Virus record (IMG/VR): IMGVR_UViG_3300032294_002335
Coordinates: 1 to 21,085 of that record
Source of the DNA: a virus
DNA length: 21,085 bases
Direction: 5' to 3' (one strand)
Both the position numbers and the translations under genes were made by a program. A model generated the notes under the pieces. The model was not told where the DNA came from. It saw only the letters and a program-made list of their open reading frames with translations, and did not search any database. Positions 14,834 through 18,081 of the stretch are shown piece by piece. Numbering within the stretch: the stretch's first letter is position 1; every line of letters begins with the position of its first letter.

Positions 14834-15097
14834 CTATTGACCTTTGTCCTCTGACATTTTTGCATGGCTGCTCAGCAATTTACGCAGACGTTCGATCTCT
14901 TTTTCTGCTTCCATCAGCTTTTTAATCTCAAGACAGATCTGGTTGTGCGACTCGTTGTGCTTTTCTATAAACTTTAAGCTGAGGTTGTGATTCTCTTTAC
15001 GCAATTCTTCAATCTCTTCAATCGTTTCTTCAAGCACGATCTTCTGACCGCCCGTTGCCCAAGGCATCCAGTTCTTTAGCTTCTGTAAGATGTCCAT
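14834..15097 (-). CDS. Coiled-coil relative of the tandem MDI-type array
   Basis: An 87-residue, almost entirely coiled-coil protein. The start MDILQKLKNW resembles MDILKRLRN and MDIVERLRS of the array genes downstream in sequence (16584-17253), and it contains EIERLRKLL near the end, but it lacks the shared ALKGDE terminus. It therefore looks like an outlying or older member of the same family. Its ATG overlaps the upstream stop by 1 nt (TAATG). Function is unknown. Confidence 0.7.
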   Translation of the reverse strand: MDILQKLKNWMPWATGGQKIVLEETIEEIEELRKENHNLSLKFIEKHNESHNQICLEIKKLMEAEKEIERLRKLLSSHAKMSEDKGQ

Positions 15098-15438
15098 TAC
15101 TCGTCTTCCTCATGGATCAATTCATACGCGGCCTTCATCGCCGGACTGTTGGTCACGGAACTCGGATAGTACTCGGCATAGTCGTTGTACAAATTCTGAA
15201 GGGCCGCAAAAAGTGTTGTGCCCCAATCACTATTCTTCTGGTTTAGGTCTTGTAGGATTTGGATCATCGCACGATTGTTTCGGATTATTGCGTAGTTGTC
15301 TCTGATCGTATCGTCCTTAAACTTTAAGACAGATTCGATACGCTCCTTCAACTTGAGACAGAGCTTATCGCACTTCGTGCAACCCTCACACGGATCACCA
15401 TTTAACCACGGGTCCACTATCTCTGCGGCTGTTGTCAT
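15097..15438 (-). CDS. Hypothetical protein with N-terminal cysteine cluster
   Basis: A 113-residue protein. The N-terminal part has four closely spaced cysteines (DPCEGCTKCDKLCLKL, pattern CxxCxxCxxxC), which could bind zinc or an Fe-S cluster; the rest is helical. GAGGTGAAG precedes the ATG. The 3' end overlaps the next gene by 1 nt. CxxCxxCxxxC is also the spacing used by ferredoxin-like clusters, but the length and lack of other ferredoxin features argue for structural zinc. Not recognised. Confidence 0.65.
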   Translation of the reverse strand: MTTAAEIVDPWLNGDPCEGCTKCDKLCLKLKERIESVLKFKDDTIRDNYAIIRNNRAMIQILQDLNQKNSDWGTTLFAALQNLYNDYAEYYPSSVTNSPAMKAAYELIHEEDE

Positions 15439-15442
15439 TTCT

Positions 15443-15523
15443 TCACCTCATCAAATTGATTATGCTGATGCCAACAAAGATTCCCGCAAGAACCCCCGTC
15501 ACGTAGGCCGGAAAACATTCCAT
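15443..15523 (-). CDS. 26-residue membrane peptide
   Basis: A very short ORF (start MECFPAYVTGVLAG, end ISIINLMR) that is one hydrophobic helix. It fills the only gap between two coupled genes. The ATG overlaps the upstream stop by 1 nt, and GGAGATGAG from the upstream gene's last codons supplies the binding site, as at the array junctions. It ends 5 nt before the next ATG. Small size keeps the confidence moderate. Confidence 0.5.
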   Translation of the reverse strand: MECFPAYVTGVLAGIFVGISIINLMR

Positions 15524-15780
15524 CACTCATCTCCATTTAGTGCGGCACGGGCTTTGCGAAAATCACCAAGCGTTAAATCAAAACGCTTATCCACGCCAAA
15601 CCCATAAGACATTGGCATCGTGTCTGGCTGTTCATCCCAATTGCCTTTCACAACATCTGCAAACGGCTTCAACGCTTCCCGCAACCGTTCAATCTCTTTG
15701 GCGGCCTCTGGCCCGTCTGGGTTGACATAATACCTTGTTGTCTCTCCGACGACTTGTCTGAGCCTTTCAATCAATGTCAT
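15523..15780 (-). CDS. Array paralogue A (IERLR / GDE family)
   Basis: An 85-residue member of the tandem family. It starts TLIERLRQ, has the NPDGPEAAKEIERLREALKPF module in the middle and ends in ARAALNGDE, a one-residue variant of the shared terminus. The NPDGPEAA block is shared with paralogue E (16584-16772), where it follows a similar YY/WY-V/I sequence. It starts in an ATGA overlap with the gene upstream. No catalytic motif is visible. Short phage proteins with ADEIERLRE-type coils are common in phages of alphaproteobacteria, but their function is unknown. Confidence 0.75.
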   Translation of the reverse strand: MTLIERLRQVVGETTRYYVNPDGPEAAKEIERLREALKPFADVVKGNWDEQPDTMPMSYGFGVDKRFDLTLGDFRKARAALNGDE

Positions 15781-16055
15781 CCCCGAACCTTCCTGTTCTG
15801 CAAAACCCTTAACGCAATTTGCTTCGCCCGTTCTGCTGTTGCCTTGCCAGTGGCAATACGTTCCAATGCATCCATGAACATTTCATGGTCCAATTCATAC
15901 CGATGCGCTTCAACGTAATTCTGATGCCACATGGACGCTTGCGCTTCCCAATACTGAGCCGCCGTGATCGTGTCTTTGCGGAGATTAACGACGTTATTCC
16001 CCGCATCTTCCGCGTCAATCCTTGCGGCCTCTTCCTGTGTCCAGTTCTTGCTCAT
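15777..16055 (-). CDS. Unrelated gene inserted in the array
   Basis: A 92-residue helical protein that lacks both the IERLR module and the GDE terminus (it ends LQNRKVRG). It still uses the array junction repeat as its binding site, starting at ATG 16055 with a TGATG overlap. A GTG one codon earlier is less likely. It contains AAQYWEAQASMWHQNYVEAHRYE and ALERIATGKATAERAKQIALRVL. Not recognised. Its presence shows that the junction can serve foreign genes. Confidence 0.7.
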   Translation of the reverse strand: MSKNWTQEEAARIDAEDAGNNVVNLRKDTITAAQYWEAQASMWHQNYVEAHRYELDHEMFMDALERIATGKATAERAKQIALRVLQNRKVRG

Positions 16056-16258
16056 CACTCATCTCCCTTTAGTGCGGCTTCGGCAAATGACCAAACGTCT
16101 AATCCATCGTTATTTTCCGCAATGCGTTTCAACGCTTCCCGCAACCGCTCAATCTCGTCGGCGGCTTCAACAAAAAACTGCGCCAAATCTGCGTCTGAAA
16201 ACTGATGTGGTTGGTTTTCAGGATCGCGGATTGCTTTTGCTATTTCTCTATAGTTCAT
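16055..16258 (-). CDS. Array paralogue C
   Basis: A 67-residue member: a distinct N-terminus (NYREIAKAIRDPENQPHQFS), then EAADEIERLREALKRIAENNDGL and the shared end AEAALKGDE. I start it at ATG 16258, overlapping the upstream stop by 1 nt. The central AADEIERLRE block is the same as in paralogue D, including at nucleotide level. Function is unknown; a short coiled coil that could dimerise with other members is likely. Confidence 0.75.
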   Translation of the reverse strand: MNYREIAKAIRDPENQPHQFSDADLAQFFVEAADEIERLREALKRIAENNDGLDVWSFAEAALKGDE

Positions 16259-16584
16259 CACTCATCTCCCTTTAGTGCGGCACGGGCGCAATCTGTTATT
16301 ACGTTCATCGTTGGTTTGTCATAGCGTTGTGACACCGCAAGAATTGCCGTCAGCGCCGATCTTAATTCTTTGTTTCTCTCGTTTCTTGAAAATGCGGAAC
16401 GTGAGTATTTTTCAGCTTTATCTACGGCAGAAACAAATTCCAATTTTAATTTGTTGTTCTCTTCCCGCAACCGCTCAATCTCGTCGGCGGCCTCTTTGAC
16501 ACGGGCTGCGCTTACTTGAACCCATACAATATCAGGATCATGCCATCCTTCTTGATTGGAACGTAAGTATTTAACAATATCCAT
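16258..16584 (-). CDS. Array paralogue D
   Basis: At 108 residues this is the longest member. It starts MDIVKYLRSN, then VKEAADEIERLREENNKLKLEF (coiled coil), an extra helical region (VDKAEKYSRSAFSRNERNKELRSALTAILAVS) and the shared end CARAALKGDE. The start is ATG 16584 with a TGATG overlap. The N-terminus is like that of E and G. The extra central region is absent from other members, in line with modular growth. Confidence 0.75.
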   Translation of the reverse strand: MDIVKYLRSNQEGWHDPDIVWVQVSAARVKEAADEIERLREENNKLKLEFVSAVDKAEKYSRSAFSRNERNKELRSALTAILAVSQRYDKPTMNVITDCARAALKGDE

Positions 16585-16772
16585 CACTCATCTCCCTTTA
16601 GCGCGGAACGGGCGGCTGCACGGTCTGTTTCATCGCCATCATCTAATAAGTTCCAAATAATAACCCGCAACCGCACAATTTCGGCTGCGGCTTCTGGCCC
16701 GTCTGGGTTGATATACCATCTCGTCGTGCCTTCTATACCGCCAACAGATCGCAACCGTTCAACAATATCCAT
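16584..16772 (-). CDS. Array paralogue E (mosaic of A-like and F-like halves)
   Basis: A 62-residue member. The first half (MDIVERLRS...WYINPDGPEAAAEIVRLR) resembles paralogue A; the second half (IIWNLLDDGDETDR then ARSALKGDE) is nearly the same as paralogue F. It therefore looks like a recombinant. The start is ATG 16772 with a TGATG overlap. No catalytic motif. Function unknown. Confidence 0.75.
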   Translation of the reverse strand: MDIVERLRSVGGIEGTTRWYINPDGPEAAAEIVRLRVIIWNLLDDGDETDRAAARSALKGDE

Positions 16773-16978
16773 CACTCATCTCCCTTTAGTGCGGCACGGG
16801 CGGCTAATGCTTCTGTGCGGTCTGTCTCATCACCGTCATCAAGCAAATTCCAAATAATGCGCCGCAACCGCTCAATCTCGGCATCTTTCTTAATCAAAGC
16901 GTCTAAATAAACCCTGTTCTCTTCGCAAATGCGTTTTATCCCTGATCCAATATCAAATAATTCAGACGTGCTTATCAT
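16772..16978 (-). CDS. Array paralogue F
   Basis: A 68-residue member with a unique N-terminus (ISTSELFDIGSGIKRICEENRVY), then KDAEIERLRRIIWNLLDDGDETDR shared with paralogue E and the end AARAALKGDE. The start is ATG 16978 with a TGATG overlap. The acidic DDGDETD patch occurs only in E and F. Function unknown. Confidence 0.75.
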   Translation of the reverse strand: MISTSELFDIGSGIKRICEENRVYLDALIKKDAEIERLRRIIWNLLDDGDETDRTEALAARAALKGDE

Positions 16979-17253
16979 CACTCATCTCCCTTTAGTGCGG
17001 TATCAATAATCATTTCAGCATCAATGTATGATTTATCCTCAATACATTCTTTCACTGCTGCCAACGCTTCCCGCAACCGCTCGATCTCTTTCTCAAGTAA
17101 AGAACGATCAGGCTGAACGCTCTCAGGAGCAATATCTGGAAATACCGATTTCCAGATATCAAGTTCTTCCTGCAACCGCTTGATCTCTTCCTCAAGTATA
17201 GATGCGGCGGGTTCGCTCTTCTGTGTGTTACGCAACCGTTTAAGAATATCCAT
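16978..17253 (-). CDS. Array paralogue G (first gene of the array)
   Basis: A 91-residue member with two copies of the coil module: EEEIKRLQEELDIW and LEKEIERLREALAAV, after a start MDILKRLRN. It ends IIDTALKGDE. The doubling fits internal duplication. The upstream junction (17251-17267) is a diverged form of the repeat with GGGGGAATAAG as binding site, so the array appears to begin here. The start is ATG 17253 with a 1-nt overlap. Function unknown. Confidence 0.75.
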   Translation of the reverse strand: MDILKRLRNTQKSEPAASILEEEIKRLQEELDIWKSVFPDIAPESVQPDRSLLEKEIERLREALAAVKECIEDKSYIDAEMIIDTALKGDE

Positions 17254-17555
17254 CACTTATTCCCCCTCGGTGGTGGCAGGTACGTGTAAGGGTAGACGTT
17301 ATCCATGACACCTGACACGAACTTCACGATCCGGTAATCACTGTCATTGTAACGCATATCAGGCTCACGATGGCCGGACACAATCTCAGCTTCGATTTCG
17401 TCAAACAACTCGTCGAGATCATGCAAAGCATGGGCGTACTTTTCATACGTCGTCGGGGTCTCGTCATCATTCTCGTCAATCGTAGTCCAACAGTTCACCC
17501 AACCATCGGCAACGGTCCAGTGCTGGACTTCGAAGTGCTCTTTGACATCTGTCAT
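17253..17555 (-). CDS. Conserved small phage protein of unknown function
   Basis: A 100-residue acidic protein. The start pattern HFEVQHWTVADGWVNCWTT and the later YNDSDYRIVKF resemble a family of short phage proteins I have seen without assigned function. The ATG overlaps the upstream stop by 4 nt within the string GGCAAATGACAGA, a start context shared with the genes at 17728 and 18275. The 3' end provides the binding site for the array. Confidence 0.75.
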   Translation of the reverse strand: MTDVKEHFEVQHWTVADGWVNCWTTIDENDDETPTTYEKYAHALHDLDELFDEIEAEIVSGHREPDMRYNDSDYRIVKFVSGVMDNVYPYTYLPPPRGNK

Positions 17556-17728
17556 TTGCCATTCTCCAGATCCTCAATGGAAGTCTTAATGAGATAAAGA
17601 TCCGTTTCCGTATGAATACGGAACGCCTCCAGATGCCCGACATCCATACAAAGTTCTTTAACCAAACGATCTAACTCCGCGACCTTGTCGAGAAGGTACT
17701 GGACCTGTGGTCCGTGGTTCTCTGTCAT
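17552..17728 (-). CDS. Small coiled-coil protein
   Basis: A 58-residue ORF starting MTENHGPQVQYLLDKVAELD and ending IKTSIEDLENGK, helical with heptad-like spacing. It fills the gap between two coupled genes, and both ends are ATGA overlaps, which supports it strongly despite its size. The start context is GGCAAATGACAGA. Not recognised. Confidence 0.7.
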   Translation of the reverse strand: MTENHGPQVQYLLDKVAELDRLVKELCMDVGHLEAFRIHTETDLYLIKTSIEDLENGK

Positions 17729-18081
17729 TTGCCGCTCCGAAACTGTTCAAGAAGACGCAGGGCTTCTTCGCTATCGCCAAGCACGAGCTGGTCGAGGATC
17801 TTCTGATACTCGTTCTTCAGGGCTTCCTCTTCTTTTTTGCAACTTGCAAAATCAAACTCAACCTCGTCATGAAACACGACATAGTTATACCAAGCGTTTT
17901 GATAATAAGCGCCTTCTTTGTAAGGCTTTATGCTGACCTCCCCTTTGAGAAGGGCCTTCAATTTGTCCTTCTCTGAAATGGTCTTGCACTTGGCCTTATA
18001 CTTTTTAGTGATCGCATCGTTGCGTTCACGATAGATATCGTTCGCCCGTCCTTTTGCGTATTTCAATTGTGTGCTGTTCAT
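17725..18081 (-). CDS. Hypothetical Lys/Glu-rich protein
   Basis: A 118-residue protein: helical, lysine-rich N-terminus (YAKGRANDIYRERNDAITKKYKAKCK), a central part with tyrosines and aromatic residues (YKEGAYYQNAWYNYVVFHDEVEFDF) and a helical acidic C-terminus. It overlaps both neighbours by 4 nt. I do not recognise it. Confidence 0.7.
   Translation of the reverse strand: MNSTQLKYAKGRANDIYRERNDAITKKYKAKCKTISEKDKLKALLKGEVSIKPYKEGAYYQNAWYNYVVFHDEVEFDFASCKKEEEALKNEYQKILDQLVLGDSEEALRLLEQFRSGK

Follow-up and report, generated by a model that had tools for sequence, protein, structure and literature searches.

T4-type mobile regulatory cassettes carry promoters and stem-loops. In Cluster K mycobacteriophages, the Start-Associated Sequence (SAS) is a 13-bp element, GGGATAGGAGCCC, that contains AGGAG, is found in 11-19 copies per genome, and lies a few nucleotides before the starts of genes of different families, sometimes including the upstream stop codon (PMC3203893). 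Its presence varies among related phages, and about half of the copies are extended (ESAS), with 17-bp inverted repeats (PMC3203893). For the nin region of lambdoid phages the overlap pattern is an old finding, depicted as a "chain of interlinked genes" (Kroger and Hobom 1982, cited in PMC8022706). Overlapping TGATG and ATGA gene pairs are usually coupled by termination-reinitiation, for which an intragenic Shine-Dalgarno (SD) sequence is often important: of five E. coli pairs, four reinitiated less once the SD was removed (PMC6728339). The location of SDs within upstream coding ends is also known (PMC2784483), and short conserved boundary sequences at gene borders have been proposed to aid gene shuffling (PMC3029335).

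The locus described here is an array of small genes in a window of viral DNA (the whole stretch analysed, an IMG/VR virus record of 21,085 nucleotides). The DNA polymerase encoded there shares 51-52% identity with its counterparts in phage DSL-LC04 and Pelagibacter phage HTVC023P; a search for relatives via gene 17725-18081 found none. The array is very probably a chain of translationally coupled genes, built on portable junctions that are spread by recombination and in which the SD sets the C-terminus of the upstream protein.

The array and its junctions

The genes and junctions of the array, in the order in which they are read, are as follows.

16978..17253, minus strand: array gene 1, 91 aa, MDILKRLR...EIERLREAL...TALKGDE
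16976..16998, minus strand: junction 1 (GCACTAAAGGGAGATGAGTGATG), 23-mer scan
16772..16978, minus strand: array gene 2, 68 aa, ...EIERLRRIIWNLLDDGDETDR...ARAALKGDE
16770..16792, minus strand: junction 2, 23-mer scan
16584..16772, minus strand: array gene 3, 62 aa, MDIVERLR...SALKGDE
16582..16604, minus strand: junction 3, with GCG for GCA
16258..16584, minus strand: array gene 4, 108 aa, MDIVKYLR...AADEIERLREE...ARAALKGDE
16256..16278, minus strand: junction 4, 23-mer scan
16055..16258, minus strand: array gene 5, 67 aa, EAADEIERLREAL...AALKGDE
16053..16075, minus strand: junction 5, preceding the unrelated array gene 6
15777..16055, minus strand: array gene 6, 92 aa, outside the family, its start supplied by junction 5
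15523..15780, minus strand: array gene 7, 85 aa, MTLIERLR...EIERLREAL...ARAALNGDE
15521..15543, minus strand: junction 6, the AAATGGAG variant, with Asn for Lys and GGAG kept
15443..15523, minus strand: putative 26-aa ORF MECFPAYVTGVLAGIFVGISIINLMR after junction 6, sequence read by hand

The original prediction, that six of seven consecutive genes end in ALKGDE or a near variant, is correct, with five ALKGDE ends, one ALNGDE and one RKVRG, and the MDI[VL] starts and EIERLRE middle that it described are real in the array genes. The last junction, which it took as the end of the array, is followed by the 26-aa ORF; when this putative ORF is counted, a following ORF is present at all six junctions. 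The encoded peptide is hydrophobic and is possibly a membrane microprotein. The start of array gene 1 has CGAGGGGGAATAAGTG just 5' of it (SD -10.9), within the end of gene 17253-17555. Array gene 6, which the prediction had already singled out as an unrelated gene using an array junction, does take its start from junction 5; its C-terminus, RKVRG, corresponds to an SD of its own (AGGAAGG) in place of a KGDE-type tail, and its homologues in two relatives (L155 and L141) have other ends. Beyond the array, the two genes at 14834-15438 look intragenically rearranged with respect to relatives L229 and L230, where a single gene combines the start of one of them (ATGGQK-VLEE-like) with the other's end (NSPAMKAAYELI).

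The 23-nt junction GCACTAAAGGGAGATGAGTGATG is present in six copies with at most one mismatch, against 0.00 expected from 100 dinucleotide shuffles. In all six, the upstream stop and the next ATG overlap as TGATG. AAAGGGAG, whose duplex with the anti-SD is calculated at -8.4 kcal/mol, ends 7 nt 5' of the ATG, which bears out the claim that the common end of the proteins is encoded by the next gene's SD plus TGATG. Alignment of the six junctions reveals near-complete identity from approximately five codons before the stop up to the next ATG, with an abrupt drop on both sides, and a 20-nt core is found exactly in phage contigs whose proteins have otherwise diverged. The middle motif (EIERLRE) is likewise a repeated nucleotide block in the window; the junction is thus not singled out by nucleotide identity alone, and a comparison of codons is required.

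A search of 15400-17600 for inverted repeats returned one pair only, away from the junctions, and no stable hairpin was found at the junctions, which fold no better than shuffles, a result that lends no support to an integron-like hairpin array. A T4-like promoter cassette is not supported either, with three promoter-like sites against 4.3 expected in shuffles, all three on the opposite strand. In the KGDE and KEGE versions of the junction (16053-16075 in the window, and relatives), each of the three frames has a stop no more than 16 nt from the ATG; this was dropped as an argument, other junction classes being without such stops.

The protein family and the codons of its tail

The array proteins are members of a phage family in which MDIVERLR, a variable stretch, AADEIERLREAL or EAADEIERLREAL, a second variable stretch, ARAAL and a tail follow one another. 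One set of family members was gathered by scanning viral contigs with the middle motif only, and is hence independent of the protein ends; it holds at least 120 stretches, and the same motif search in bacterial and archaeal genomes gave three. A Pfam and PHROGs scan of 47 members produced only isolated single-member matches and no common model, a PDB profile search gave nothing convincing (coiled-coil matches were at chance level), and no convincing relatives of the array proteins were found among isolated phages. An AlphaFold2 model of the array gene 5 product, built with 47 relatives, displays helices at residues 3-11, 22-49 and 55-63, with a mean pLDDT of 76 and a pTM of 0.49, so that helix packing is uncertain. 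The last four residues are coil, outside the helices, and the folded part of the family proteins is, in the model, predicted to end at the ARAAL helix. Three relatives (L040, L049 and L015) have a common start module, MMTTDWMMELEDSR...AKDAEIERLR, followed by different C-terminal halves, which points to mosaicism inside the protein bodies as well.

Tails in the relatives are KEGE, GEKE, KEKE, QQKESE and KGDE, the commonest classes being GEKE, KEGE, KEKE, KGDE and QKESE. The family genes coupled through TGATG number 118, from 78 loci. In 92% of them, the last 18 coding bases pair with the anti-SD at -6 kcal/mol or better, a level attained by 4 of 20 members (20%) that have no start nearby; in the middle-motif set, with TGATG and ATGA pooled, coupled and uncoupled members differ in SD pairing with a Mann-Whitney p of 3e-9. 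The distance of GGAG from the ATG is mostly 7-8 nt, but 75 genes have it in codon phase 2 and 22 in phase 0; the nucleotides thus stay where they are, while the encoded amino acids differ with the phase.

Choice of codons points the same way. Synonymous resampling that preserves the last six residues gives a mean pairing of -6.18 kcal/mol (sd of means 0.19), compared to -9.26 kcal/mol observed. Codons inside the SD are nearly fixed (Lys AAG 97%, Glu GAG 96%), and synonymous change is concentrated outside it, at Leu -5 and at the second Gly of KEGE. Codon identity alone was rejected as evidence, because the middle motif is codon-biased too (CGG 89%, for example) and some of the identity is therefore attributable to shared descent; Glu codons were compared instead, and those of the tail (161 GAG to 6 GAA) differ sharply from those of EIERLR in the same genes (146 to 90; p = 4e-18, or p = 1e-5 with one gene per locus). 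Neither a family member that keeps KGDE without a following gene nor a constant peptide with varying junction codons was found when these were sought, synonymous change being nearly absent inside the SD. The GAG preceding TGATG is 97% conserved though it does not pair with the anti-SD, a preference that is weaker in ordinary TGATG pairs of the same loci (44:14); this over-conservation means that part of the junction is not explained by the SD. The suggestion that KGDE is probably a by-product of translation control is supported for about the last four codons, but not for the AL/AAL portion of the common end, which falls within a helix in the prediction and most likely belongs to the protein proper.

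Exchange of tails and genes

A comparison of copy number and order between relatives had been called for, and array content does differ between close relatives. L230 (polA 87% identical to that of the window) and L229 (94% over the 72 aa present) have homologous flanking genes and different arrays, the former with QQKESE-type tails and the latter with a mixture of KGDE and QQKDSE types. A match to the window polA is absent from 16 of the 20 array-bearing records, including contigs of approximately 59-61 kb, although many of the records are fragments. Inside one locus, tail classes agree in 48% of pairs, versus 11% when shuffled.

Tails are exchanged between nearly identical proteins. The body GIDAPAVDAIIEKDRGDKARAAL ends in KEGE in three relatives (L125, L161 and L182) and in KGDE in L002, while the IIWNLLDDGDE body, that of array gene 2, carries KGDE in the window, QQKDSE in L229 and GEDK in L217 and L219. 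At about 12 clear sites, the junction persists either untranslated or in another frame. In L130, a CAA to TAA change ends the protein at ARSALQ and leaves AAGGAGAGTAAGTGATG untranslated up to the next gene; the homologous end in L132 reads ARSALQQKESE. The relatives are metagenome assemblies, and single-base cases such as that of L130 could be errors. In L142, the unrelated end YGCGN and a stop are followed by an untranslated GCACTAGGGGAGAAAGAATGATG; behind a homologous gene in L204 stands CGTGCCGCACTGAAGGAGG, which is what remains of a different junction class. A 38-aa gene reads the KEGE junction in another frame, its stop being the TGA within CTGAAGG; it occurs in L125, L215, L226 and L290, each time with a different gene after it. 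Further junctions kept without being read as a tail are present in L158 and others.

Junction-anchored scans identified 157 distinct KEGE sites and 57 GEKE sites with a downstream ORF. Some matches of a 16-nt scan were unrelated chance SDs and were left out of the counts. The downstream proteins fall into 58 clusters for the KEGE junction (149 proteins) and 29 for the GEKE junction. ALKEGE is also the end of unrelated enzymes, among them a dCTP deaminase-like protein, an N6/N4 DNA methylase and a Dam methylase whose gene is flanked by two junctions, and genes for MazG, a nuclease (SNase) and a transglycosylase (SLT) start at junctions. Unrelated upstream genes, as set by a simple pattern filter that may include some diverged family members, read the junction mostly in frame 0, not in one third of cases. 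The cassette behaviour that had been proposed is supported by tail swaps, by unrelated genes with the same tail and by junctions in other frames. It is of note that a second phage family (MISKDK...IACVKVEIDCEEGEGL; L006:86-428, L091, L021, L120, L182, L213 and others) has a G-rich conserved end directly 5' of ATGA or TGATG with varied next genes, and is likely, judging from the sequences, an independent case of an SD-shaped C-terminus.

Could the C-terminal peptide itself be under selection, as a degron, docking tag or assembly tail common to the paralogues, with incidental SD-like codons? The tails are always charged and alike in character (K/E/G/D), and the preference for frame 0, far above one third even in unrelated upstream genes, could point to a role for the tail or for the precise overlap of stop and start. 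Charge is, however, expected from any tail that encodes an SD, near-identical proteins change tails freely, most uncoupled members have no tail, and L130 loses its tail by a nonsense change while the DNA is kept; in addition, codon choice at Glu and Lys hardly varies in the tail, unlike that at Glu in the middle motif. This reading was rejected on the grounds of tail swaps, other-frame junctions and codon constraint, and is considered highly improbable. An equally slight chance is given to recent tandem duplication only, in which the copies would be young and the junction identical by descent with no special constraint. The DNA-level repetition of the middle motif and of other stretches in the window, together with the clustering of tail classes by locus, is what such a history would leave; against it stand the limits of the identical block, bounded at the ATG and approximately five codons upstream with differing flanks, the exact 20-nt core in contigs with diverged proteins, the convergence of different tail nucleotides on one SD position, and the use of a common junction by unrelated genes.

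An unlikely alternative, though less remote than these, is that an RNA- or DNA-binding phage regulator or a recombinase recognises more of the junction than the SD, which would be one part of its site. The GAG before TGATG and the GCACTA/GCACTG segment are conserved beyond anti-SD pairing; in Cluster K, comparable over-conservation prompted the authors to suggest that a factor might bind SAS (PMC3203893). Yet at least five tail classes place different nucleotides in the same position, and the junctions display no inverted repeat, stable hairpin or excess of promoter-like sites over shuffles.

In the favoured account, that of coupled genes on portable junctions, each junction consists of a strong SD and, approximately 7-8 nt after it, an ATG overlapping the upstream stop (TGATG), and a ribosome that ends one gene would most likely reinitiate on the next. 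Since the SD falls within the upstream gene's final four codons, it sets the residues there, KGDE in the window and KEGE, GEKE, KEKE or QQKESE in others, which are probably not needed by the protein. Genes would be duplicated, lost and replaced, presumably via homologous recombination; junctions would be near-identical inside a genome because these events leave the junction in place, and a gene that lands on one would inherit the start signal of the next gene, and usually the short tail too. Constraint at the nucleotide level, exchange of tails, use by unrelated genes and differing arrays in close relatives are all demonstrated by the sequence comparisons. A more speculative extension, which is possible but doubtful, is that the junctions act as a recombination platform, their near-identical SD tails in the gene gaps of a genome providing the homology by which single genes are exchanged, with annealing or strand-exchange proteins of the phage itself as possible agents. 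If true, the array would function as recombinase-independent cassettes, with crossover at the ribosome-binding site and expression guaranteed for any gene that lands at a junction.

Comparison with described systems

The coupled-gene account provides many natural experiments in which the last residues of a protein are dictated by the translation signal of the next gene and exchanged regardless of the protein, and serves as a caution that conserved C-termini in compact genomes need not imply function. It would also offer a concrete description of single-gene swapping with expression kept, a step of phage mosaicism that is usually left unexplained. The family itself is widespread in uncultured phages and without a Pfam or PHROG model, and its mosaic structure can be analysed once the tail is set aside.

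The original prediction knew of no named system of this kind, a statement that is too strong, since lambda nin and the Cluster K SAS share the principle. As with SAS, a repeated, SD-containing sequence lies shortly before the starts of genes of different families, although the SAS consensus GGGATAGGAGCCC has no match in the window with up to two mismatches allowed, and the 17-bp inverted repeats of extended SAS are not at the window junctions (15400-17600 examined). Unlike SAS, the junction described here is part of the coding region and determines the C-terminus of the upstream protein; it exists in several versions and connects the genes of a paralogous array. For lambda, the comparison covered ninB, ninC and ninG, each of which ends in AA and has G-rich SD codons ahead of ATGA; the nin region resembles the array in its small accessory genes, overlapping stops and starts, SDs in upstream C-termini and gene content that varies among phages, but its junctions are loosely alike, with no identical transferable junction, and its genes are not evidently paralogues. 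Termination-reinitiation pairs have the same geometry, but are single gene pairs with no repeated or exchanged junction. Unlike T4-type cassettes, the window junctions have neither promoter enrichment nor hairpin, the common element being a translation signal. The array is a repeated, portable translation-start element, an unusually clean new variant of a known principle, and what is new is the location inside the coding end, the existence of several interchangeable versions, and a paralogous array built around the junction.
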